IMG/VR virus record: IMGVR_UViG_3300023180_000280
Span: 1 to 29,712 of that record
Strand: one strand, 5' to 3'
Length of the DNA stretch: 29,712 bases
Source: a virus
The notes under the pieces were generated by a model. It searched no databases. It had not been told where the DNA came from and was given only the letters and a program-made list of their open reading frames with translations. The first letter of the stretch is position 1; each line of letters starts with the position of its first letter. The position numbers and the translations under genes were made by a program. This document shows positions 13,690-26,419 of the stretch, one piece after another.

Positions 13690-13984
13690 TGGCTAGCACT
13701 CCAAATTCTAAAAGGTATTTTCGTTCAGCAGCAAGCTTTTTAAGCCTAGCTTGATCTTTGCGCTTCAACTCACGATCGATCATTCCAAGCACCTGCACTA
13801 GATCTGCAGCAGTTAGTGCACCCAGCGCAAAAGACTTGCTTTGCTCTACACAAAACCTTTCTTGCTTGTGCAACAGATCCCTAGCACGTTGTAACTCTTC
13901 AACCGTGCTGATTCTAATCAAATCACGCAGGCCAATCAACGGCAAACGCGCAAGGGCATCTGTTAGACCAGGCAAAGCTTGCAT
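13601..13984 (-). CDS. Small head-region protein, unknown
   Basis: The 127-residue product starts at ATG 13984, overlapping the capsid stop as TAATG. It is helical: TDALARLPLIGLRDLIR, TVEELQRARDLLHKQERF and VLGMIDRELKRKDQARLKKLAAERK, and ends with a very basic, low-complexity tail (KNNKKESSRAGRRGRR) which is the part overlapping the next gene in another frame. Phages often carry small helical proteins directly after the capsid gene, but I do not recognise this one. Translational coupling to the capsid gene is likely given the overlap and the lack of a strong binding site. Confidence 0.65.
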   Translation of the reverse strand: MQALPGLTDALARLPLIGLRDLIRISTVEELQRARDLLHKQERFCVEQSKSFALGALTAADLVQVLGMIDRELKRKDQARLKKLAAERKYLLEFGVLANGSKKNSEEKNNKKESSRAGRRGRRIFTD

Positions 13985-15450
13985 TAAGCAGGATCGGTAA
14001 CACTACCGCCAATATTATAAAAGCGGATAATGTGTTGCTGCACATACAAGGCACAGGTTGCCATAGCATCAATTGAGAAACGATGCGTGTTGTCGATGCG
14101 TGGCAAATCTGCTGCAACTGGCTTTTCCAAGGCAATCAGGCCACAAGATCGTTCATCAACCATAATTGCTTCACGGCTACCAGGCACAATTGAACCATCA
14201 TCATTGATCGTTTGTGTGCCACCTGCAGAGCCAGTTAGCGCAACTTCTTTGAGCAAGCGCATCTTGGTATAATCTGCACCGCTAGTTGTGGAACGGTACA
14301 AGCGCAAAGACTTGATCTTATCAAAAGCGGTACCACTTGGAAGATCAACAACAACATTCACACTGTTGTTGGTTGTCCCTGTAGTGTAGCCCGTTGCGTG
14401 CAGCTTGATTGGACCCTCGCCAACTTCATTAACAAAAGCCACGCCATAAAAATATTCGTCATCAGGCAATTCACCACCAGCAGCAATTGCACTTGAAGCA
14501 TTGATTGAAGGAGGCTGAGAAGGTGCATTGCTATGAAATTTATCTGAATCCGTTGGATCTTCTGGAGTAGCTTTATACTTGCCACGAACACCCGCCAAGT
14601 GCAGATCCCAGATAATATCAAGATCGTTACCAAACTCATTAGACAGTTGGTCAACCTTGATACCAAGACCAAGTGCAGAAGGCACATCCTGCTTGTAAAA
14701 GCGCATCTGGTTATCAACATCCGAGCCAAAGCCAACGCGTTCTTGCGGAGCGCAATAAAGAGCACTGAAAGCACCGCCATATTGAATTGCGTTATGGACA
14801 CGACCGCGAACATCAGAAAGTTGAAGATCGCCACCCCCGGTAATCTTACCACCTGAAGTAGTTGCCATATCAACATTAAACTCACTGCTGGTATCCATTT
14901 GTTTAATGATTCCATCAAACGCAAGCGAGTTAAAAGCACTGTCACTGTGCCAGATGTCCCTTTCCAGGTTAATCAAAAACGCGCTCAACTGCTCTTTCAA
15001 CTCAAATGCTTTTGCATCACCAAAAGAGCCACCAGCAGCTTCTTGCAGTGCTCTTGTTACTGCACCCACACGACCCAAAAACTTTTGAGTACGAGAAACG
15101 CGAGAAACACGGCTTGACTCTGTTTGACCCAAAGCACCTTCACTGCGAAAGTTCCCAGAAAGATTACCGCGAGAGGTAAGCCTATTCCACTCAGAAGTTA
15201 GTGCACGGGCATCAAAAGTGTGCCAACGGCGCAGTTTAGGAGTATTGTTTTGCTCATCAAGTGTAGCGTAGCGAATGAGTCGATCCAGGTCATAACCATT
15301 CAGGTTTGAGCCATCAACACCGATTGAAGAGCTAGTTGCAAGAGCTTTTGAGATTTCAAAAACATCTGCACCAAAAAGACTTTCAAGAATGGCATTTTCT
15401 CTTGTGTGCGAAAATGCGTTACTAGCCGAAGCTTGCAATTGTGGCAACAT
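13984..15450 (-). CDS. Major capsid protein with inserted beta-rich domain
   Basis: The 488-residue product follows the protease/scaffold gene, the standard position for an HK97-fold capsid protein. The N-terminal part is helical and charged with the E-loop-like region (residues about 60-130, including SRVSRTQKFLG), then the long spine-helix-like segment (FELKEQLSAFLINLERDIWHSD, given in two parts: FELKEQLSAF and LINLERDIWHSD). Residues about 305-425 differ in character: Pro/Ser-rich lead, then DDEYFYGVAFVNEVGEGPIK, SLRLYRSTTSGADYTKMRLL and a closing turn. This looks like an Ig/Fn3-type domain inserted in the capsid fold. The last 60 residues return to the capsid (STDMATCALYVQQH-like helix). 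Start is ATG at 15450 with AGGGG upstream. Confidence 0.85.
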   Translation of the reverse strand: MLPQLQASASNAFSHTRENAILESLFGADVFEISKALATSSSIGVDGSNLNGYDLDRLIRYATLDEQNNTPKLRRWHTFDARALTSEWNRLTSRGNLSGNFRSEGALGQTESSRVSRVSRTQKFLGRVGAVTRALQEAAGGSFGDAKAFELKEQLSAFLINLERDIWHSDSAFNSLAFDGIIKQMDTSSEFNVDMATTSGGKITGGGDLQLSDVRGRVHNAIQYGGAFSALYCAPQERVGFGSDVDNQMRFYKQDVPSALGLGIKVDQLSNEFGNDLDIIWDLHLAGVRGKYKATPEDPTDSDKFHSNAPSQPPSINASSAIAAGGELPDDEYFYGVAFVNEVGEGPIKLHATGYTTGTTNNSVNVVVDLPSGTAFDKIKSLRLYRSTTSGADYTKMRLLKEVALTGSAGGTQTINDDGSIVPGSREAIMVDERSCGLIALEKPVAADLPRIDNTHRFSIDAMATCALYVQQHIIRFYNIGGSVTDPA

Positions 15451-15475: not shown

Positions 15476-16009
15476 TTAAGCCAGTTGTTCTTTTGCCCAG
15501 GCTTGCGCTTTAGGGCTCAGATTAACGTTATCAATGATGGACATATGCCCTTGCTGTGCAGCGTCGATCAAAGCAAGTTTGTAGATATCATCTTTTGCCA
15601 TTGCAAAGCGATCACCCTCGCCAAAATTCAAACGCCCCCGGTATGATTCAGATGCACAATTCAAAGCTTTTTCAACAACGTTTACAGCTTTGACCTGCGC
15701 ACCAGTAGGCTTAACCTTTGCCTCAGTTGGAGTATTGATCGAAGTGAAACCACGACGATCAGCAAGACCCGCTGGATTGTGCCTAGCTTCTTGCTCCATT
15801 TGATCCATTCTTGCTTGCATGGACTTAATAACTTCTTGCTGCTCTGCAATCAATTCTTCTGCAGTTTTAGCAACTTCTACTTCAGGTACTTCAAAACCCA
15901 TTGCTTCAAGTCCCTTGCTAACTTCTTCAGGAAGCTCAACGTTGCCTTGATTGTCGGCTACTGCAGCCAGTGCAACTTGAAAAGCTTCAAACGCTTTAAC
16001 AACACTCAT
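15476..16009 (-). CDS. Nested scaffold protein (internal start)
   Basis: An in-frame ATG at 16009 is preceded by AGGGGG, five bases away, the same type of binding site used for many genes here. Starting there gives a 177-residue protein made of the C-terminal part of the protease gene: a helical start (VVKAFEAFQVALAAVADNQ), a coiled-coil middle and a basic end that may contact the capsid protein. The layout matches the nested protease/scaffold genes of lambda (C and Nu3). That the start is used is inferred from the binding site and domain boundary; it is not proven here. Confidence 0.6.
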   Translation of the reverse strand: MSVVKAFEAFQVALAAVADNQGNVELPEEVSKGLEAMGFEVPEVEVAKTAEELIAEQQEVIKSMQARMDQMEQEARHNPAGLADRRGFTSINTPTEAKVKPTGAQVKAVNVVEKALNCASESYRGRLNFGEGDRFAMAKDDIYKLALIDAAQQGHMSIIDNVNLSPKAQAWAKEQLA

Positions 16010-16696
16010 AGTTTCCCCCTGAGTATTAAGTGGTTTACAATCTAAGGCTTTTGCAATCTCGATTGCTTGCCCAAATGCCTTAGCAACTGTATTGATTGAC
16101 GTTATTTTTGTTCCCGGATGTATTGAGATCGGTGTAACACTAATTTCATACAATTCAACTTCTAGCACCCTTGGGACGACTTTATCTAGTTCACTGCTCC
16201 AGGCCGGTACAACTTCACGCACACCGCCACGAATGGACAAACCAGAATAAGCACCTGACTTTATACCTTGCCAAGCTTCCTCACACTTTAGCGCAATTGA
16301 GTCTAAAGGTATAGTGTTACTATGTTTACTCCATTGATCCAGAACCTCTTGCATGTTGAAGATTACACCGCATAAGTACATACCTTCATCTGTGAAGTGC
16401 AGACTTTCAACCCGTCCGATCGGCATATTTGCTTGGTGATGCCAGACAATAACAGGGTTGCGCTCCAGGTAAGTTTGCGCTCCTTTTTCGCAGGCTTTTG
16501 CAGCCACTTCCATGTCTTGCATGTCCAGGCCAGGCAGACTAGCCCAGCCTTCAAAGTATCGCCTATTTTGCCCAGAAGGATCAGCAACATGTTGCAGGCC
16601 ATTAACCGCCGTTGCAAAATCAACAGTACTTGTTGCGCGGATAGGCGCAGGAGTTAACAAGCTTGCTCTTTTTACTGTTGGTAAGTTCTGATTCAT
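15476..16696 (-). CDS. Prohead protease fused to scaffold
   Basis: The 406-residue product has an N-terminal caudoviral prohead protease domain (S78/U35 type, about residues 45-220): RRYFEGWASLPGLD, the histidine block NPVIVWHHQANMPIGRV (His86/His87), the serine block YSGLSIRGG (Ser154), and VELYEISVTPISIHPG. It matures capsid proteins after assembly. Residues about 230-406 form a different, helical, acidic domain with coiled-coil stretches (EELIAEQQEVIKSMQARMDQM), as expected of a scaffold. An internal ATG at codon 230 has its own strong binding site, so scaffold can probably also be made alone. Start is ATG at 16696; GGGAG lies eight bases upstream. It directly precedes the capsid gene. Confidence 0.88.
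   Translation of the reverse strand: MNQNLPTVKRASLLTPAPIRATSTVDFATAVNGLQHVADPSGQNRRYFEGWASLPGLDMQDMEVAAKACEKGAQTYLERNPVIVWHHQANMPIGRVESLHFTDEGMYLCGVIFNMQEVLDQWSKHSNTIPLDSIALKCEEAWQGIKSGAYSGLSIRGGVREVVPAWSSELDKVVPRVLEVELYEISVTPISIHPGTKITSINTVAKAFGQAIEIAKALDCKPLNTQGETMSVVKAFEAFQVALAAVADNQGNVELPEEVSKGLEAMGFEVPEVEVAKTAEELIAEQQEVIKSMQARMDQMEQEARHNPAGLADRRGFTSINTPTEAKVKPTGAQVKAVNVVEKALNCASESYRGRLNFGEGDRFAMAKDDIYKLALIDAAQQGHMSIIDNVNLSPKAQAWAKEQLA
16010..16018 (-). promoter_or_regulatory. Internal ribosome binding site for scaffold
   Basis: The minus strand reads GGGGGAAACT directly before the in-frame ATG at 16009, inside the protease gene. The five-base spacing and G-run match sites at the starts of other genes in this operon, for example the tail tube, sheath and baseplate J genes. 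Confidence 0.6.
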
Positions 16697-16699
16697 CCC

Positions 16700-19600
16700 C
16701 TACACTCCCAATGCTTTTTCATAACCTAAAGCTTTGCAAACACTCTTTTGCACAAACTTTTCTAACGACACTTGCAAAGCTTTTTTAACCTCACTAGTTG
16801 CAGGATCAAACGACCGGAAGGAATCATTGACATCAGCAAGATATTCTGGAAACACCTCTTGCACTGCTCTTTCGTCAAAATCGCTAACATCTGCAGCTCT
16901 GCCCATCAAAGGACGACCAAGCATATCAGTACTTGCCAAACTACTTGTTGAAATTGTGCCATTAGGATTAAGACCAGCAGACACACGACTTAAAACATCT
17001 GCTTTCTGATTAACGTACTCTTCATGAACCATAGAAAATTGAGCCAGGCCTAAGCCCTTATGATACTTTTTAGGCAAAGTGCCTTTAATTGTTCTTGCAA
17101 ACATATCCAGGTGATGGTCCCCCTCTTCAAACAATAAAGCAGGCAAAGGCTTATCAAGCTTTTTGTTTAGTTCTCTTGCAGCATGGCTTATTTGTGCATC
17201 AGAAAACCGATCAGCAATAGCGCGAAGATCTGCAGTTCCGTTTGGTGCAGATCTAATTTGACCATTAGCATCACTGAACATTTTGCGATCGTGCCTTGCT
17301 TGCTTTTTGCCCAACTTCTTAGGAGGCACAGACATCTTTTCCTGTGTGCCTTCACTAGTCTTTGCACCTTCTTTTTGCGCTGCTCCAGGCTCAACCGCTC
17401 CAGGCTTGCTTGCTGCAGGCTCAACCGCTCCAGGCTTGCTTGCTTCAGGCTCAATTTCTTTTAGTTTTTGCTTTATACTGTCGTGATAATAAAATAATGA
17501 AGCAACATCTAATTTATCTTTAAATTGTGATGTATCAAGATTACTACCACTTAAATGCGCAGCTAATGCAGCACTAATTGATTTAGCAAACCGATATTTA
17601 TCTTTGTTTAACTCAATATCAATTCGTGGCTTTGCTTCTAACCCTTTTTCAGTGCGCACTAAAGGCCGAATGCTATACTTACCAGCACCTTCACGCGCAA
17701 AAATAAAAGATCTGTCTTTGCCATCTGTAATAATTTTATCCTTTTGTCTAAGCTTCTTTGCATACCATTCAGGCCATATCTCTTTCTTAAGTGATGGTGT
17801 TTCTTTTGTTTCTAAATCCCCATTAACAAGATCTCTAATAGTATCAGATAGAACATCTGAAGATCTGTTAAAACGGATACTTACAGCTTCATCTACATAC
17901 TTTATTAAATCTTCTTTTGTTGCAATTTTGCTAGGATCTAATGATTGTTTTTCTTGCGCTCCAGGCTCAACCGCTCCAGGCTCAACCGCTCCAGGCTCAA
18001 CCGCTCCAGACTCAGACACATTAAACAACTGGGTTTGCAGATCCCTTGCAGTCTTTTTTGCTTCTTCCACAATAGGCTCAGACCTGCTAGCCAAGTGCTC
18101 AGGACCACGCGCCAACAACTCTTGATAAACGCGAGTACCAGCCCTTAACCGTATTAAATCTGCTTCTGTTCCAACGTCTTTTGCTTCGCTTATCAGTTGA
18201 CTAACACCAAACTCAGACATCCCCACACGCTGCATTAATTCTGCAAAGTGATCTTCAAGGTCGTTTTTTTCTTTTAAATTAAGCCCTGTGCTTTGCAGCT
18301 TATCCATCAAGGCCATACTATCTTGCTTAACCTCGTCGTTAGACTTCTTGCTAATCTTTTCACGCTCTGCAGATCTTCTTCTGTTCTCAACACGTTCTCT
18401 TTCTAGGCTGAGTGTAATAGCAGCAAGCTCACCTGCAATAAAATCATTATAAATTCTTATAATGTCGTCAGGGCCTGCACCTTCAGCAATAAGTTGTGGT
18501 TTGATCTCTTCAAACATCTTTTCAACGTTGTAATACTCAGCAAGATTCTTTTGTGCTTGTGGATCTGTACTGTCTGCAATCTGCTCTGCAGTCTTTGCAC
18601 CCGCCCCGCCCCTTGCTGCAACTTCATCTTTGTATTTTTGTGGTACTTGACCAGGCGAAAAATGTTGCACTGGCACACCTTCACGAAGTTCAACAGCCCT
18701 TGGACGTATATATCCTTCAGCACTAGCCCCTTCATCTTTTGGCTTTTTCTTTGCAGGCTTGTTTTTTTCACGCTCAATCAACGCTTTAAGCTCTAGTTTG
18801 TGTATTTCGTATTCTTCAGACCCAGGAGCACTTGACGCAAATTTATCTAAGGCTTCTTGTGTGTACTCAGAAACATAAACACGACTATCACCAGCACTTG
18901 CAATAGTTTGTGCTGCTGCTAGCAACTTTTGATCTTCTGCTGAAAGGTTCGCTTTTGGCGATTCAACACCAAGCACATCAGCTTCAACCGCTGCAGGCTC
19001 TTCAGATCCAGGCTCCACCACTGCAGGCTCTTCAGATCCAGGCTCCACCGCTGATGGCTCAACCTTTGCACCTTCTTCTTGCGCTCCAGGCTCAACCGCT
19101 CCAGGCTCCACCACTGCAGGCTCTTCAGTGCCAGGCCTCACAAAATCACCTGCTTCAATTCGCAACCGCATATCATCAAGCATTTTTGATGTTACTTGCC
19201 CTGCTTTGTCAGATAGGCTTGTTACACCCATCATCTTATACAGATCTTCTTTTGTTAGACCTTGCCTTGTTGCTTCAGCAAACAACTTACCACGCGCAGC
19301 ATTGAGCTTCTTCTTGTCGTCACTCTTAAGGTATGCTTTGTTTTCTTTGTGCCAGCGCAGCATTTCAGCTTTAGCAAGCTCAATTTGTCTTTCAGTTGCA
19401 ACGCCACCTAGAAGGCACTCTTGAAATAAATCTTGCCTAGCAATCAAGCCCTCCATTGCAGCCTTTTCAAACTCTTCTCTATGCTCTTCACGCAGCAACA
19501 CGCGAAAATCAGCACGGCTCATGGTTTGAACCGGCCCCCTGTTGCCATGCTCATCTTCATCTAAGTAAAACGTTAAGTTTTTGCCATCAACACTTTCAAT

Positions 19601-21763
19601 AATAAAATGCCCTTTGCCCTTACCAGCAGCAAAGCTTGCGCCTGCATGATAGTGCTTATCGGAAGATTCACCAAGTACACGCTTGTGCTCTGTTGCGTGC
19701 CCTTCATGCCTTGTTCTTTTTTTACCGCCACGCTTTGAAGGATATGCATACCTCCAAGAGCTTTTGCCCGTTTTTTTGTTGGTTACACGCCAACGCCTTA
19801 AATATTTTGTTGTCCGACCTTTGATAATCTCAACAAAAACCGCCTCCAAAGCCTTTTGGATCTCACTACCTTCAATCGACTCTTTCAGCAAGTCAACACT
19901 AGACGGAGCACCAAACAAGCCACCGCCTACACCACCTGTTGCAAGCCGATCATAGTTTCTAAATATCTTGCTCAATTGCACCGTTCCTTTGCTTGCCAAA
20001 GTATCAAACAATAAACTTGCACGTTCGTTTTTATTAACAGGGTGTTGCATTTCACCACGCGCACGCCGATCAAAATCCATGTCAAGATCCAGCCGTGCAT
20101 TTTCAACTGCTTTGCTGTTCTTTTCTGGCATCTTTCCAAGCTTTGAGCGCATTTCATTGATAGCACTCAAAGCCAACTTAAGATCGTTGCGCATTTTGTG
20201 ATCTTCACCTGCACCTTCAGCACTAAGCAAACTTGGTGCAATCCGAGCAATCGCAGTTTTCATGCTATCACTTGTTGCAGCCAATAGATCGCCGTCATCT
20301 ATAGTTTTGCCGAGCAAGGCCAATTCAACAAGCTCACGACCTTTTTTGTTAAGTCTTTTGTCTTTGCCTACAAACTGATTTCGATTGCGATCATCAATAA
20401 CACCAGACATAGCCAGGCTTTGCACAAAATCTTCACTGGCAGCACTTTTTAAAAAGTCGTTTAAGGTTTGATCGTCCTTAATACCGTTGGCAAGTGCATC
20501 TAAGTTATCTTTGCTCAACTTGCGACCAATCGCAGCAGCTTGTGCAGATTCATCCATCCCCTGCGTCATGCTTTCGTTAAATTGACGCACCAGCAGCCCT
20601 TGCTTTTCACCTTGCGCTTCAATTCTGCGCACAAGCACCGGCTCTTTCATGCCTTTAACATCTGCTGGATCAAAGCCTAGAGACTCAGCTTTTTTAAGCA
20701 ACTCTGCACGCAACTCTTTAGCCTTTTCACCACCTTGCTTATACAGCAATTGCATAGACATTGTGCGACTGTTGCCACCAAGCACCACCCCCTGCTCATT
20801 CACTACAGGAGGACCATTTAAGGCATCTGGATTTGTATTAACAACAATGCCAGGCTTGAAGTTTTCCGCATTTTTGCGCACTTTTTGCTGCTCTGCTTTA
20901 TCACGATGATATGCTCTTTCTTGCAGCCCAGCAGGATAGTTTTGATTGGCTTGAAAAGTTGTTGGGTCGTGTGATGGTATGATATCGCTTGCTTCAACTA
21001 GTCGATATTCACCTGCAACACTTTCAGGTTGCCCTTCTTTCCCAGGGTAAAAAACTTCTGTGGTGTTGCCTTTTTTGCCCTGCAACTCGCTTAGTTTTTC
21101 ACCACTTGCTGCAGTATCAAAGCCTTCTGTTGTTTGTCCTATCGTTTGTGATTCATCAATCGCAGTTGGTTTAATATCTGCTTTTGCAGCACTCTGCACA
21201 CCTGCGTTAACCTTTTTCCAACGCTCAACCTCTTTTCGTGCCCTTGATCTTTGCTGTGGTGTTGCACCTTGCCCCAACATGCTTTCAAGCTCAAGCCTTG
21301 CACGCAAACCCGCGTTAAACTCTTTATTGAATTGATCCGCATGCTGTTTGCGCAGTAAAGCTTGAAAAGCAGCAACGTTGATGTTTGCAGGACCACCAAC
21401 AAGCTTAAGACCCTGCTGCATGGTATACAGTGCAACTGTAAGCACCTTATCAGCAACTTTTTCGATACGATAAAAGCCACCGTCAGAGCTTGCAAACTCT
21501 GCACCCTTTGAATACAGCGACAGATCGCCCAAAACACCGCCCGGGAAAAATTCAAACCCAGCAAAGGCCGGATCTTTGCGCTGTTTTGTTTCTTCTCCAC
21601 TTTTTGCTGTGCGCTCTTTTTTCTCGTCAGGGTGCGCTTTCATCCACTGGTTACGGCCAGCCTTGTTTTTCTTAAGCACAAGGCCAGGCCGAGGAGGAGC
21701 AGCAAGAGCTTTTTGCAACTCTTGCTTGCGCACTGGTTTTAATTTGAAAAAAGAGCTTTGCAT
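16700..21763 (-). CDS. Large polyvalent protein with ddrB-like ParB domain
   Basis: This 1687-residue protein is the largest product here. Residues about 252-400 match the ddrB-like ParB superfamily domain: ASDIIPSHDPTTFQANQNYP, then VNTNPDALNGPPVV, VLGGNSRTMSM (residues 327-337) and LLVRQFNESM. Such domains occur in large polyvalent proteins of phages and plasmids that are thought to enter with the DNA and counter host defence. A unit of about 95 residues occurs twice (about 95-190 and 718-812). Three Pro/Glu/Gly/Ala linkers (about 878-926, 1252-1270, 1439-1465) separate further unassigned segments, the second and third being helical and charged. Two basic patches (NKAGRNQWMKAHPDEKK; RRWRVTNKKTGKSSWRY) recall other polyvalent proteins. 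It lies between the portal and protease genes, so packaging into the head is plausible. No protease, helicase or methylase motif is visible. Confidence 0.85.
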   Translation of the reverse strand: MQSSFFKLKPVRKQELQKALAAPPRPGLVLKKNKAGRNQWMKAHPDEKKERTAKSGEETKQRKDPAFAGFEFFPGGVLGDLSLYSKGAEFASSDGGFYRIEKVADKVLTVALYTMQQGLKLVGGPANINVAAFQALLRKQHADQFNKEFNAGLRARLELESMLGQGATPQQRSRARKEVERWKKVNAGVQSAAKADIKPTAIDESQTIGQTTEGFDTAASGEKLSELQGKKGNTTEVFYPGKEGQPESVAGEYRLVEASDIIPSHDPTTFQANQNYPAGLQERAYHRDKAEQQKVRKNAENFKPGIVVNTNPDALNGPPVVNEQGVVLGGNSRTMSMQLLYKQGGEKAKELRAELLKKAESLGFDPADVKGMKEPVLVRRIEAQGEKQGLLVRQFNESMTQGMDESAQAAAIGRKLSKDNLDALANGIKDDQTLNDFLKSAASEDFVQSLAMSGVIDDRNRNQFVGKDKRLNKKGRELVELALLGKTIDDGDLLAATSDSMKTAIARIAPSLLSAEGAGEDHKMRNDLKLALSAINEMRSKLGKMPEKNSKAVENARLDLDMDFDRRARGEMQHPVNKNERASLLFDTLASKGTVQLSKIFRNYDRLATGGVGGGLFGAPSSVDLLKESIEGSEIQKALEAVFVEIIKGRTTKYLRRWRVTNKKTGKSSWRYAYPSKRGGKKRTRHEGHATEHKRVLGESSDKHYHAGASFAAGKGKGHFIIESVDGKNLTFYLDEDEHGNRGPVQTMSRADFRVLLREEHREEFEKAAMEGLIARQDLFQECLLGGVATERQIELAKAEMLRWHKENKAYLKSDDKKKLNAARGKLFAEATRQGLTKEDLYKMMGVTSLSDKAGQVTSKMLDDMRLRIEAGDFVRPGTEEPAVVEPGAVEPGAQEEGAKVEPSAVEPGSEEPAVVEPGSEEPAAVEADVLGVESPKANLSAEDQKLLAAAQTIASAGDSRVYVSEYTQEALDKFASSAPGSEEYEIHKLELKALIEREKNKPAKKKPKDEGASAEGYIRPRAVELREGVPVQHFSPGQVPQKYKDEVAARGGAGAKTAEQIADSTDPQAQKNLAEYYNVEKMFEEIKPQLIAEGAGPDDIIRIYNDFIAGELAAITLSLERERVENRRRSAEREKISKKSNDEVKQDSMALMDKLQSTGLNLKEKNDLEDHFAELMQRVGMSEFGVSQLISEAKDVGTEADLIRLRAGTRVYQELLARGPEHLASRSEPIVEEAKKTARDLQTQLFNVSESGAVEPGAVEPGAVEPGAQEKQSLDPSKIATKEDLIKYVDEAVSIRFNRSSDVLSDTIRDLVNGDLETKETPSLKKEIWPEWYAKKLRQKDKIITDGKDRSFIFAREGAGKYSIRPLVRTEKGLEAKPRIDIELNKDKYRFAKSISAALAAHLSGSNLDTSQFKDKLDVASLFYYHDSIKQKLKEIEPEASKPGAVEPAASKPGAVEPGAAQKEGAKTSEGTQEKMSVPPKKLGKKQARHDRKMFSDANGQIRSAPNGTADLRAIADRFSDAQISHAARELNKKLDKPLPALLFEEGDHHLDMFARTIKGTLPKKYHKGLGLAQFSMVHEEYVNQKADVLSRVSAGLNPNGTISTSSLASTDMLGRPLMGRAADVSDFDERAVQEVFPEYLADVNDSFRSFDPATSEVKKALQVSLEKFVQKSVCKALGYEKALGV
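17369..17449 (-). repeat. Linker repeat 3 (ASKPGAVEP units)
   Basis: Two near-identical nine-residue units (ASKPGAVEP) lie at about residues 1441-1459 of the large polyvalent protein, followed by similar Ala/Gly/Pro residues. On the plus strand the unit contains gctccaggctc. The stretch separates two helical segments and looks like a flexible, expandable linker. Confidence 0.75.
17954..18010 (-). repeat. Linker repeat 2 (GAVEP units)
   Basis: Three tandem 15-base units encode GAVEP at about residues 1253-1267 of the large polyvalent protein; on the plus strand each reads ggctcaaccgctcca. The near-perfect DNA identity suggests recent slippage or recombination. Confidence 0.85.
18986..19132 (-). 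repeat. Linker repeat 1 (EPGAVEPG / EEPAVVEPGS units)
   Basis: About 49 residues (878-926) of the large polyvalent protein consist of Glu, Pro, Gly, Ala, Val and Ser, with repeated units such as EPGAVEPG and EEPAVVEPGS. The DNA repeats (ggctcttcagatccaggctc on the plus strand occurs twice) are nearly identical. A flexible acidic spacer between domains is the simplest reading. Confidence 0.85.
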
Positions 21764-22113: not shown

Positions 22114-22551
22114 TTAACCCTTTTTATCTGCAGCTTCCATTTGACGCTTGATCTTGTTAGCCCACGCTTTGCCGGCATCACCACCCCAAAGCAGCCAACT
22201 TTGTCTAGCTTTGCCTTTTGGATCTGTCTTGTGCTTGTGCTTGTAGGCACTGTGCCGTGCAAAAAAAGCAACCATTCTTTTGATAGTATCCGGGCTTATG
22301 TTTTGCCTATTTGCTAGGCTAGATGCCCTGGAGACACCAGACCCGATCCCATGCGTTGATGCTTGCTTTTGATCCAAACCACCTTTTTTTGATTTTGGTG
22401 CTTCTTTTCGCAACTCCAAGCCACGCCTAGCAGCAGCAGCAACAGATTCTGGAGGTTTAAAATTAATGTGCGAATACTTGCCTAGTGCTTTTTGCACCGT
22501 TGCAACCTCCAGAACCTCTTGCAGCCAAAAGTCAAATATATTGACCTTCAC
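22114..22551 (-). CDS. Conserved phage head-region protein with WGGD motif
   Basis: The 145-residue product has a recognisable phage domain: KPPESVAAAARRGLELR, a Lys-rich bridge, GIGSGVSRASSLANRQNISPDTIKRMVAFFARH, (in parts: GIGSGVSRASSLANR; ISPDTIKRMVAFFARH), and SWLLWGGDAGKAWANKI. I know this pattern (PP-x-hydrophobic, R-A-x-x-L-A, S-x-D-T-hydrophobic-K-R-M, W-GGD-x-G-x-x-W) from proteins encoded near phage portal and protease genes, sometimes fused to them. Its function is not established to my knowledge. Start is GTG at 22551, overlapping the previous stop as TAGTG, so translation is probably coupled. Confidence 0.75.
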   Translation of the reverse strand: MKVNIFDFWLQEVLEVATVQKALGKYSHINFKPPESVAAAARRGLELRKEAPKSKKGGLDQKQASTHGIGSGVSRASSLANRQNISPDTIKRMVAFFARHSAYKHKHKTDPKGKARQSWLLWGGDAGKAWANKIKRQMEAADKKG

Positions 22552-22735: not shown

Positions 22736-24511
22736 TTAGTTAAGATCAAAGCCTTCAGGCTTTAATTCTTCAGGTATACCAGAAAGCGATAGATCGCCCG
22801 GATCTTCTCCGGGCAGATCTTCGCCACCCCCCGCTTGATCTGATACCTCAGCTTGCGCTAAGTCTTCCATCCCAGGTTGATCTTCCATCCCAGGTTGATC
22901 TTCCATCCCAGGTTGCGCATCAGATCGCGCTTTTTCGTCATAAAACGTTTTTCTATAGTTTAGCGGTTTATCGCCATCTTCAACGGGAGCTTTACCGCGT
23001 TCAAGTCTAGCTTCGTTTACAGTGAGCAAGTGCAGATCTAATTGCTTTTGTATCTGCTCTAGTGTTTCTGCCTCATCTGCACCGCCACGCTCTGCAACAC
23101 ACTTTACTAGATCGCTACCAAAATCTTGAACAATACAACGTGTTATTGTTGTTTCTATAACTCGCAAAATCGCATCAAGGCCAGTATCAGCTTCTTCAGC
23201 ACTCGCAAATGCTGTTGCTCTATTAACATCGTCAGTTATACCAATTTTAAACGGCGGGACATCGAGAACAGCACAAACCCTGACCATGAATTGCTTTTGC
23301 AATTGAACGCTCCACTTATCCCCACCGCCCGGATTCATGCTGAGATCAACGCCTTTAATTTCGCCATCTTTCCCAGATGCCATAATGGGCAATTGATAAG
23401 TACCTTCGAGTTCTGCCTCGTAATATGCCCGATAGGCATCAACATCTTCTTGCGTATTCAGCCCAGGTATCCCCTTAAGATGCAGCATTTTCCCGTATGT
23501 TTCACGCTTAAACTTTTTTAGCGTAGCAATATCTCCACGCGCATCCAGTTCTAGTGTGTTTAACAAGGTTTCTGTTCTGCTGTACGGATACCCCCGGAAC
23601 ATAACATCACTTTGGGGATGTTCCAAAACCGGCATAATATCGCAGGAACGAAAGCCAGGCCCAACTCTTTGATTGTCGATCCATTGTTCCCAGGATACCG
23701 CATCAGGATCAATATCCCCCGCATAGTCGCCAAACTCAGTTATAACGGGTCGTAAGGTTGCAGAATCCAACCAATGCAATTCTTTAATCTCGCTAGCAGG
23801 TGAGCTTGTGCCATCTGCCCCCGCTTCTCTGCGCAATTCCCACGCACCCAGGCCAATAGAGTATAGATCTTCAACTAATGGACGCAGCATATCATCCCAA
23901 GTGCGCCTTGTTCCGTTTGGATGCAAAAGCAACCGCCTAGGCCTTTCCGCAACCCGCTCTGCTTCAAGCAAAAGATCCAAATAAGCTAGCCTGAATCTAT
24001 AGCGCAACTCTCCTTCTGTTAGGTCACTACCAACAGTAGCAGCCAGCAGAGCACGCACAATCTTTGCAGGCAACCACAAAGGCTTATACCTTTCAAGATC
24101 CGCTGCACGCTCTTCAATCCTGTTTGCAGCAATTACAAGTTGCTCAAGCATGTCTAATTCTTTTTTGTGGTGCTCCAGATTTGGCACAATCCGCCAATTT
24201 GCACCAGCAACTTCGCGCTGCCTAACAGCAATACAAGCACGCAAAGCCCAATTCTTGCGCGCAAACGTTCTTAAAATTTCGTAGGTAACGCCCCAAGGCT
24301 TGCGCACCCCAAAACCGCCAGCTTCTCTAGCCCGATCCATGGGGCGTTTATGCAATCCAATTCTTTCGACACTACCACGATCAGCCATCAGTTGATTGAC
24401 TGGAGAGCGCAGGGCTTTTTCTAGCTCAAGACTATCAAGGCCACTGCTAGCAATAGACCAGGCACTCTTTAAACGAGTCCAATATGCTTGTGACCACTCC
24501 AACCAATTCAC
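22736..24511 (-). CDS. Portal protein
   Basis: The 591-residue product follows the large terminase gene with a GTGA overlap and has the portal plan: charged N-terminus, EILRTFARKNWALRACIAVRQREVAG (in parts: LRTFARKNWALRACI and AVRQREVAGANWRI) as the clip/wing entry segment, long helices, the strand region LPIMASGKDGEIKGVDLSMN, the conserved QLQKQFMVRVCAVLDVPPFKIGI (as KQFMVRVCAVLDVPP) and the DVNRATAFASAEEA block common in HK97/Mu-type portals. It forms the dodecameric entry ring through which terminase pumps DNA. The last 60 residues are acidic, with three tandem QPGMED units. Assigned with good confidence by motif and position. Confidence 0.88.
   Translation of the reverse strand: MNWLEWSQAYWTRLKSAWSIASSGLDSLELEKALRSPVNQLMADRGSVERIGLHKRPMDRAREAGGFGVRKPWGVTYEILRTFARKNWALRACIAVRQREVAGANWRIVPNLEHHKKELDMLEQLVIAANRIEERAADLERYKPLWLPAKIVRALLAATVGSDLTEGELRYRFRLAYLDLLLEAERVAERPRRLLLHPNGTRRTWDDMLRPLVEDLYSIGLGAWELRREAGADGTSSPASEIKELHWLDSATLRPVITEFGDYAGDIDPDAVSWEQWIDNQRVGPGFRSCDIMPVLEHPQSDVMFRGYPYSRTETLLNTLELDARGDIATLKKFKRETYGKMLHLKGIPGLNTQEDVDAYRAYYEAELEGTYQLPIMASGKDGEIKGVDLSMNPGGGDKWSVQLQKQFMVRVCAVLDVPPFKIGITDDVNRATAFASAEEADTGLDAILRVIETTITRCIVQDFGSDLVKCVAERGGADEAETLEQIQKQLDLHLLTVNEARLERGKAPVEDGDKPLNYRKTFYDEKARSDAQPGMEDQPGMEDQPGMEDLAQAEVSDQAGGGEDLPGEDPGDLSLSGIPEELKPEGFDLN
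22862..22915 (-). repeat. Three tandem 18-base units in portal C-terminus
   Basis: Three 18-base units code QPGMED three times (portal residues 533-550); the plus strand shows cttccatcccaggttgat repeated with only the last unit altered at its end. The near-identical DNA points to recent tandem expansion in a flexible acidic tail. Confidence 0.85.
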
Positions 24512-26367
24512 GACAAAACCCCCGGACGAATATACTTAACGGCGTGTGACACTGCACCGCATAAACTATCAGCAACGTCTTTTGACCCATAAGAAGGATG
24601 ATCTATTTTCTTGCCCCTCACCAACTCCAGTTGCAACAACTCAATTTGCAGTATAGCGCAACTATCCCCACTTTTGGCAAGTTGCGCTAGCTCTTGATAT
24701 GTTGTTTCTGTGTTTTGTCCGTGTGCAGGAGGAAAACAAACGCGCCCCTCATAGATCCCTTGCTTTAACGTGTTGTAGTGTAACACACTTTTTGCACCGT
24801 CCACACTTAACACTTCAACTTCAAAACCTTCGTTGTTCAAGGTCTGTATACTATCGATACTTTGCCAACCATCATAACTTGAATTAAGAAACCGAAAACC
24901 CCGGTGCTTTGAAAGCCAGTAAATAATTTCTCGAACGCGAGAAAAGACGACTTCACCACCAGGAGGAGCTTTGATTTGTATGCAGATCTCAACGTCTACC
25001 AAAACGCACCTTTCAGGCTTGCCCTCATTACTCACAAAAGCAACCTCATCGAAGCCAGCATTGCGCACTACTGTTAAGCCTGCAGCATCACCACTAGCAG
25101 ACCTGCTTAAAGCTAGATCTACATGAAAGTGATAAAATTCCCGACGATCCCCCACAAACCAATCTTCAACCAAACTATCAAAATGCGACCACAAATAACC
25201 TTGATCGACTGCAGCCATCCAAGCAAAAGGCTTGACCCCCGGCTTGATTGGATTGCGCAACTCGTAATCAGGAGAAACAAGATCACGCCTGCGGAAATAT
25301 GGAGTTTTTGAACCTGCTGGAATAGATCCCAGCACTCGCAAGCTACCTTCAGGATCTGTTGTAAAATCAGTCCAAAATCTTTCAGGAACCCAAAACCCGC
25401 TTGATATTTGGCTGTGCTCAACAGCAGGCAAAAGATCCCCTTCAGCAGACCTTTCCCAATCAAACTTTTCTGGAGAAAACAACCGCCACTTTTCCGCAGT
25501 GTTTCTTTCTTCAGGCCAGTTGCCCCAGCTTGTTTTGGGTTGTGGCAAATAAAACTTGCTGTGTGCGTCCGGATCTTTCGACCACTGCGCAATCTTGCGC
25601 TGTGTAAAATCGTTCTCTATATCACGCCGGGAAATGTAGATCCGCTTACCACTCAAACCAAAACTGCTAGTCACTCGCTTGTCAAGCTCGATGTCGAGAG
25701 CTTCAGCATGACATTCACCAGAGCTTTCAGGAGCAGTGAAAAGATTGCACTCATCCAGAATATAGGTAAACAGTGCAACACCTGCTGCACTAGTCAACTT
25801 GCTATGCCCAGGATAGATCACATATCTAGGTTTGCTTGGATTCAGCTTTCCATTTTCAACAGTACAAAATTGTATTTCACTCGTTACGTTTGGATTACGC
25901 CGAATTTTATTATAGATCTCAGGCTCTTTAAGCCACTTGCAACTCTCAATTGCTTGCGAGATCTCAACAAAAAGTTTACGTGCTAACTTTTGATTGATCG
26001 TAAAAATAGCGTTATAGATTACAGTGTGAGGAGCCAGGCCAAACTTGCCCCTTGGATCTTTCCCCAGCACAACTTCTTCAAAGATCTGCTTGCAGGTAAA
26101 ATAACAGGGCAGCCTACAGACCTTGAAACTTTTGCCCCCCCGGATACCTTCTTCAATCACACCACCCTTGCAGCTTTCACTGCACAGAATCTCTAGCTCT
26201 AAAAGTGATTTTTCCCAAAAACCAGACTCACCACAAAAACGATCGCTCTTGATAAATTCTCGAATATCAGGAAAAACAGCACTAGACGCACCTCTTTCTT
26301 GCACTTCTGCCAACAGTGCAGAATTGCATCTTTTTATTGCAGCAGATATTTCTTGAAGTTCGTTCAT
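24508..26367 (-). CDS. terL: Terminase large subunit
   Basis: The 619-residue product has both terminase activities. ATPase: Walker A-like GIRGGKS (about residues 74-80), Walker B YILDE (about 202-206). RNase H-like nuclease: HVDLALSRSASGDAAG (Asp417), NSSYDGWQSIDSI (Asp499), and HPSYGSKDVADS (Asp597). It cuts and pumps DNA into the prohead through the portal encoded next to it. I chose ATG at 26367 because AGGTGGGAG ends two bases upstream; a TTG 24 bases earlier lacks a site and lies within the promoter's -10 region. Its stop overlaps the portal start as GTGA. A near-consensus promoter lies just upstream. Confidence 0.93.
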   Translation of the reverse strand: MNELQEISAAIKRCNSALLAEVQERGASSAVFPDIREFIKSDRFCGESGFWEKSLLELEILCSESCKGGVIEEGIRGGKSFKVCRLPCYFTCKQIFEEVVLGKDPRGKFGLAPHTVIYNAIFTINQKLARKLFVEISQAIESCKWLKEPEIYNKIRRNPNVTSEIQFCTVENGKLNPSKPRYVIYPGHSKLTSAAGVALFTYILDECNLFTAPESSGECHAEALDIELDKRVTSSFGLSGKRIYISRRDIENDFTQRKIAQWSKDPDAHSKFYLPQPKTSWGNWPEERNTAEKWRLFSPEKFDWERSAEGDLLPAVEHSQISSGFWVPERFWTDFTTDPEGSLRVLGSIPAGSKTPYFRRRDLVSPDYELRNPIKPGVKPFAWMAAVDQGYLWSHFDSLVEDWFVGDRREFYHFHVDLALSRSASGDAAGLTVVRNAGFDEVAFVSNEGKPERCVLVDVEICIQIKAPPGGEVVFSRVREIIYWLSKHRGFRFLNSSYDGWQSIDSIQTLNNEGFEVEVLSVDGAKSVLHYNTLKQGIYEGRVCFPPAHGQNTETTYQELAQLAKSGDSCAILQIELLQLELVRGKKIDHPSYGSKDVADSLCGAVSHAVKYIRPGVLS

Positions 26368-26389
26368 TACTCCCACCTGTACTATCTGC

Positions 26390-26419
26390 AATATACTGAT
26401 AAGCTTTTCTAGTTGTCAA
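26390..26419 (-). promoter_or_regulatory. Sigma70-type promoter upstream of terL
   Basis: In the largest intergenic gap of the window (61 bases) the minus strand reads TTGACA (26414-26419), 18 bases, then TATATT (26390-26395). That is a perfect -35 and a five-of-six -10 box at acceptable spacing. A start about seven bases beyond the -10 box would give a leader of roughly 16 bases holding the terL binding site. It would drive the head and tail genes, all in the same direction. Predicted from sequence only. Confidence 0.65.

Follow-up and report, generated by a model that had tools for sequence, protein, structure and literature searches.

A phage genome fragment carries a gene for a protein of 1687 residues in the midst of the genes that build its head, and the locus raises the question of whether the product belongs to the head or is a cargo that travels in it. 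The window, by which we mean the whole stretch of DNA analysed, is the viral record IMGVR_UViG_3300023180_000280, which is 29,712 bases long and classed as linear, often meaning a fragment. The relatives of its portal include SPO1-type and Thermus phiYS40-type portals, which points to a contractile-tailed phage far from known isolates; judged by this gene, the source is a myophage with an SPO1-like portal.

Genomic context

Read from right to left, the window begins with a QueD-like gene, a terminase small-subunit-like ORF, a 627-aa ORF, the portal gene and small ORFs, and continues through the giant gene, the head maturation protease, the major head protein, a head-tail adaptor, the sheath and the baseplate (Table 1). 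The giant gene therefore lies between the portal and two small ORFs on one side and the protease and major head protein on the other. A preliminary description, made from the letters of the sequence, had placed the ORF between portal-side genes and the prohead protease, and its position on the reverse strand together with the PHROG matches of portal and protease agrees. Portal, protease, major head protein and sheath provide a virion, late-gene context. GC content by codon position is coding-like in all segments of the gene (0.51-0.60, 0.38-0.43 and 0.20-0.39 at the three positions when the first linker is set aside).

Table 1. Features of the giant gene and its neighbours in the window.
Feature	Residues	Position	Strand	Evidence
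Major head protein		13984..15450	(-)	PHROG 5.5e-22
Prohead (head maturation) protease		15476..16696	(-)	PHROG 2.9e-10
Giant RYYY-ParB-RYYY polyvalent protein	1687 aa	16700..21763	(-)	ATG start, 1687 codons
C-terminal segment	1467-1687	16703..17365	(-)	no family match
Linker 3	1436-1466	17366..17458	(-)	Pro/Glu/Gly/Ala
Segment	1275-1435	17459..17941	(-)	no family match
Linker 2	1249-1274	17942..18019	(-)	Pro/Glu/Gly/Ala
Segment	931-1248	18020..18973	(-)	mostly helical in low-confidence model
Linker 1	874-930	18974..19144	(-)	Pro/Glu/Gly/Ala; 15-bp DNA repeats
Second RYYY copy and helices	646-872	19148..19828	(-)	HMM match, alignment
All-helical extension conserved with the ParB domain	402-645	19829..20560	(-)	homology and model
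DdrB-like ParB fold domain	231-401	20561..21073	(-)	PF18763, AF2 pLDDT >90 over most, structural matches
GGNSR active-site-type motif	329-333	20765..20779	(-)	65-sequence alignment
First RYYY copy	~27-195	21179..21685	(-)	34% identical to second copy; position relative to ParB as in relatives
Acidic protein	114 aa	21767..22111	(-)	directly upstream of giant gene
Small neighbour, KPPESVA...RGLELR type		22114..22551	(-)	phrog_2859 7.6e-12
Portal protein		22736..24511	(-)	PHROG portal 4e-20; portal profile 3.7e-155, the window portal being among that profile's own members

A DdrB-type ParB unit

The ddrB-like ParB domain named in the preliminary description was recovered by the Pfam model ddrB-ParB (PF18763), which matches residues 247-381 with an E value of 5.5e-20 and 72.2 bits against a gathering cut-off of 27.6. 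A ParB fold, anticipated at residues 252-400, was likewise found at 234-401: when the model was compared with solved structures by VIA-align, the top eight rows were all ParB, Noc, PadC or pNOB8-like ParB, with Z scores of 6.8-8.2 that exceed those of unrelated rows, and most of them superposed 92-102 residues at 2.3-3.6 A. A Foldseek search of the ParB-unit model against the PDB gave no significant match, and ParB surfaced in the second look with VIA-align only. The best predicted-structure matches of the unit are 'DdrB-like domain-containing' proteins of uncultured phages, so that homologues are already named in public databases.

The AlphaFold2 model, built from 65 sequences, has pLDDT mostly above 90 over residues 231-645, with values of about 80-96, lower in places, over 402-645; similarity to phage proteins spans residues 223-541 and in close relatives continues to ~610. 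G330, N331 and R333 are invariant across the 65 aligned sequences, and because of this the domain does not look degenerate. The ParB/Srx pocket has a conserved active-site arginine (PMC5512222), to which we infer that the arginine of G-N-x-R is equivalent. Alignment and predicted structure together describe a complete DdrB-type ParB domain, with the ParB/Noc fold and the invariant G-N-x-R, followed by a conserved helical extension. One ddrB-ParB domain apiece was present in 20 of 20 records and then in nine of 12 more (29/32 overall), most of these records having been picked for carrying it, and no other enzyme of the head cargo is as constant as DdrB-ParB. Iyer et al. proposed a nucleotide-regulated DNase or NTP sensing for DdrB-ParB (PMC5512222); a ParB-like clamp on incoming DNA is as open as that proposal.

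A duplicated module on either side of the ParB unit

Residues 34-186 and 664-808 are 34% identical (E 7e-18), an internal duplication that, like the association with MuF described below, is absent from the preliminary description. The repeated element, here called RYYY, is a module of ~110-150 aa, with one copy on either side of the ParB unit. In relatives it runs K-Y-x-R-R...Y-R-Y-Y-Y, then a strand-rich small domain (GHFHI-x-x-V-D-G-D...H-D), then a helix. An HMM made from relatives only and searched against the whole record matches the second copy (19448-19666) at 8e-10, and the model of the first copy predicts a degenerate Tyr-rich hairpin, a small beta-barrel and a helical hairpin (pLDDT about 30-86). 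On this evidence a common module stands at residues 27-195 and again at 646-830, and the protein parses as two module-headed units. The notion that the first ~230 residues form an N-domain specific to ParB was rejected, since RYYY also exists without ParB.

RYYY gave no significant match in Pfam, PHROGs or NCBIfam, and three variants of it were not found in 50,697 phage records. A match to MraZ in the second copy (0.046) was dismissed as chance. For the pattern scan the RYYY alignment A5 was too diverse, and the narrower A7 was used instead.

Distribution of RYYY among relatives

The ParB protein carries RYYY in 35 of 46 close relatives, a set that includes many near-duplicates, and the module lies upstream of ParB, usually by ~190-330 aa; the RYYY-ParB-RYYY order of the window recurs in L017 and L096. 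RYYY also begins neighbouring proteins that lack ParB (L039, L043, L045, L049 and L051, from residue 15) and heads ParB-less giants directly behind the portal (L088-L090, L100, L112, L114 and L116). One of the portal-adjacent RYYY giants without ParB bears an SNF2 helicase, and L017 encodes, next to MuF, an RYYY protein with a methyltransferase match. A scan of genome_contigs added one MAG contig, L117, which likewise has portal and RYYY genes.

The module was hit 35 times across 20 records, and 31 of these hits are no more than 7 kb from a portal or MuF gene against 21.7 expected at random (P 5e-5), and in records of at least 40 kb the figure is 13 of 15 against 5.3 expected; these P values overstate independence, as they ignore that the records are related to each other and were chosen. 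The exceptions are two copies in G022, ~15 kb from portal or MuF, and single copies in G031 and in G004, both at ~10 kb. In the records surveyed, RYYY is nearly confined to the portal-MuF block.

The slot itself appears permissive. In L099 RYYY and ParB are split into separate adjacent genes, and the slot protein of L110 (7974-10484) keeps RYYY and a C-terminal LLDLYKALRC tail around an unrelated middle with no ParB; by these examples the slot accepts both gene splitting and loss of ParB. The LLDLYKALRC tail recurs in L034, L037, L039, L045, L049 and L051.

RYYY copies of one genome have long stretches of identical DNA in common in several relatives. Two adjacent modules of L051 (2772 and 4631) share 92 bp of identical DNA, an identity that reads as the trace of a recent duplication, or of gene conversion from one cargo gene to another. 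By eye, RNR-like and SNF2-type helicase-like genes can be seen inside the head block of L041 (3843-7789), L045 (2475-6421) and L117 (2834-6828), lying between the portal-side giants and the ParB gene, and operon position alone is therefore no proof of packaging.

Association with MuF and exchange of domains

In 33 of the 46 close relatives, the ParB protein is linked to a minor head protein of MuF type (PHROG minor head, 4e-8): six have MuF as an N-terminal fusion to ParB, and 27 encode it in a separate downstream gene, often with an overlap of a few bases. In three further relatives MuF is located elsewhere in the record. Fusion, with MuF first, and adjacency, with MuF second, are each a sign in their own right, at the level of gene arrangement, of a functional tie between the ParB protein and MuF. 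A MuF profile built from relatives detected no MuF in the window, and the giant protein itself has no MuF domain.

While ParB is constant, the ParB protein of close relatives may be as short as 461 aa or as long as 3699 aa, and their extra domains comprise SNF2/ResIII helicases, LPD1, InPase, C5 methylase, Zeta toxin, RelA/SpoT, SAM lyase, GNAT and ART-PolyVal (ADP-ribosyltransferase). The domains around ParB are swapped among relatives. At least two distinct conflict-type domains, by which a polyvalent protein is recognised, are clearly present in relatives; the window protein has one known domain (ParB) and two RYYY copies, and its other segments match no family. The DdrB-type ParB and the position of the gene support the view, put forward at the outset, of a large polyvalent-type protein in the head-assembly block.

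C-terminal segments and linkers

What the window protein adds to this common core is residues 874-1687, three segments with their linkers. The preliminary description held that the segments from about 930 to 1687 match nothing recognisable and may be new effector domains. The former stands: neither Pfam nor the 50,697 phage records held a match to residues 931-1248, 1275-1435 or 1467-1687, and none came from pattern scans of IMG/VR, from 80 related loci or from PDB sequences. The latter is unsupported, the segments having no relatives and the AlphaFold2 model of residues 931-1687, made from a single sequence without homologues, a pLDDT of 42. IMG/VR scans with the full-length protein and with the segments found relatives for the ParB unit only, and tblastn of the non-ParB parts against phages returned nothing even at E 1. 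Weak matches to LPD14 (0.26, in the last segment) and TarS_C2 were dismissed as chance. A Pfam search of residues 646-1687 gave no peptidase match, which a diverged peptidase could escape where there is no confident fold. RYYY is a more informative novelty than this C-terminal half.

The linkers are as first described, rich in Pro, Glu, Gly and Ala, and all are built from one 15-bp unit. Exact DNA common to linker pairs amounts to 33 (linkers 1 and 2), 25 and 25 bp, against means of 12-13 bp and maxima of 27, 21 and 25 bp in 300 synonymous redraws. We rejected the explanation that they are mere low-complexity protein, as the DNA identity of two pairs is above all 300 draws and that of the third is level with the highest draw. 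These are the sole direct repeats of at least 24 bp at a spacing of at least 200 bp within the window. The 25-33 bp of identical DNA suggests exchangeable cassettes, and the linker repeats, with the identical RYYY DNA of relatives, would fit cassette exchange or duplication by recombination.

Role of the giant protein

We consider the giant protein to be a polyvalent protein that is probably packaged in the head and co-ejected with the DNA, a reading drawn from sequence comparison and from analogy to which we assign a probability of about 0.72. The preliminary description had offered it as a candidate for such a protein, and the candidacy, likely though unproven, gains from MuF fusion and adjacency in relatives, from the P1 precedent and from ParB in epsilon15-type ejection clusters. 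P1 offers the closest precedent that has been tested: DdrB (39 peptides), DarB and further proteins were detected in its virions, the N-terminus of DarB bears a capsid-targeting sequence (PMC9024508), and the Dar proteins enter together with the DNA (PMC9024508, PMC12810830). Proteins with ddrB-ParB are located among late virion genes (PMC5512222). Counting against packaging, the window has no recognisable MuF, and RYYY is internal rather than N-terminal in the MuF fusions.

According to this reading, the protein would be made late, alongside the head genes, and brought into the prohead near the portal or MuF during assembly, with RYYY as the presumptive docking part. That RYYY steers cargo to the part of the head around portal and MuF is suggested because giants of the head block that are otherwise unrelated have it in common, and we place the chance of this only slightly under even. 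At infection the protein would exit the head with the DNA. The ParB unit would then act on incoming DNA or on nucleotides; by analogy with P1 Dar it may bind or load onto the entering DNA via its nucleotide-dependent fold and protect or process it, a step that we favour a little less. The C-terminal segments may be exchangeable add-ons bounded by recombinogenic linker repeats.

More generally, and tentatively, we propose that one clade of uncultivated phages uses RYYY as a transferable module for head targeting (or for docking to portal or MuF), and that proteins carrying it would be loaded into the head and injected; the targeting role is assigned by association. If this is true, the portal-to-MuF block would be a cargo bay, and recombination between RYYY modules and linker repeats would exchange its contents (helicase, methyltransferase, ParB and cassettes). 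As an element common to otherwise unrelated giants of one head block, RYYY provides a cargo tag that can be tested directly and a sequence-based route to injected effectors, and the constancy of DdrB-ParB makes activity on incoming DNA or nucleotides a focused question.

For the module alone, a different function can be argued: RYYY might be a KOW/SH3-like barrel that binds DNA or other nucleic acid and grips the genome, packaging being achieved through DNA binding or other signals. The best similarities of the RYYY profile among PDB sequences include the SPT5 KOW domain and a designed SH3 barrel, at a non-significant E of about 0.07, and K/R-rich basic tails trail the module in several members. 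The conserved acidic and His positions (GHFHI...HD) are in our judgement atypical of a DNA-binding barrel and, with the similarities below significance, they count against this function, which we rate as rather less likely than not. For the protein as a whole, a structural inner-head part (core, scaffold or head-completion), which stays at the head or portal vertex and uses its ParB fold for DNA arrangement or packaging rather than for any task inside the host, is much less probable than ejected cargo. It would explain the fusion and adjacency to MuF and a gene adjoining those of the protease and major head protein, and P1 DarA and Hdf do have head-morphogenesis roles besides defence (PMC12810830), but the spread in size from 461 to 3699 aa and the accompanying enzyme domains are odd for a structural part, and the slot can be without ParB, as in L110. 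Least probable of all is a late or cytoplasmic protein outside the virion, co-transcribed with head genes and serving, for example, replication, genome segregation or host DNA degradation: the RNR- and SNF2-helicase-like genes in relatives imply that the block is not all virion, and ParB folds otherwise belong to DNA-partition and CTPase proteins, but the repeated MuF fusion, the portal/MuF adjacency, the precedent of DdrB in P1 virions and the presence of ParB, together with an SLT domain, in ejection clusters of epsilon15 type speak against it.

Comparison with known systems

Packaging and ejection, which we prefer, would place the giant protein beside several known systems. MuF-effector fusions, or polymorphic phage toxins, join effector-type domains to the MuF minor head protein. 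Such fusions occur in several close relatives of the window protein, whereas the window protein has no MuF domain and the element common to the group is RYYY. The epsilon15 gp16-like ejection proteins of Alcaligenes phage Piluca and Acinetobacter phage TPWB-05 have ddrB-ParB of the same family over ~320 residues and lie in a podophage ejection-protein cluster; they differ in belonging to podophages, in an SLT transglycosylase fusion and in having no RYYY that we could see, and identity is only 26-27%. Chromosomal ParB/Noc CTPases resemble residues 234-401 in fold (92-93 residues superposed at 2.3 A, with Z reaching 8.2), but identity in those rows is 13-19% and the window shows no partition system.

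P1 DdrB (Dar system) is likewise a multidomain phage protein with a DdrB-like ParB domain, and the ParB core of a relative matches P1-type DdrB genes in tblastn. Unlike the window protein, in which Pfam finds none, P1 DdrB has a C-terminal metallopeptidase (PMC5512222), and the window protein is set apart by its two RYYY modules, its unrelated C-terminal segments and its position between portal and protease. Iyer et al. 2017 (PMC5512222) described large polyvalent proteins that are similarly multidomain, phage-encoded and found beside virion genes, with ddrB-ParB as a principal domain, and relatives of the window protein bear LPD, InPase, SNF2, ART, Zeta and RelA/SpoT domains. In contrast to LPD domains, which Pfam holds, RYYY matches no Pfam model, and the C-terminal segments of the window protein match no known LPD. 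The protein type is already known from Iyer et al. 2017 and from P1 DdrB, the novelty lies in the RYYY module and the logic of its slot, and the giant protein is an architecturally distinct new member of the polyvalent head-cargo proteins.

Other genes of the window

The KPPESVA...RGLELR protein (phrog_2859) is a constant companion, encoded in many relatives directly 5' of RYYY genes, and is a possible partner of the cargo system. The 114-aa acidic protein ends at its C-terminus in an unbroken glutamate run and could be scaffold- or chaperone-like. The major head protein found no relatives when used as query in an IMG/VR scan. The 3' end of the portal gene (22863-22915) contains three perfect copies of an 18-bp unit, encoding QPGMED repeats. 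The 627-aa ORF (24508-26391), with no match in Pfam or PHROGs, occupies the terminase position and by eye its second half resembles a terminase nuclease domain; it is possibly a very diverged large terminase. At the contig edge (28656-29663), a QueD-like gene and a phrog_12600 gene suggest queuosine-type DNA modification or metabolism.
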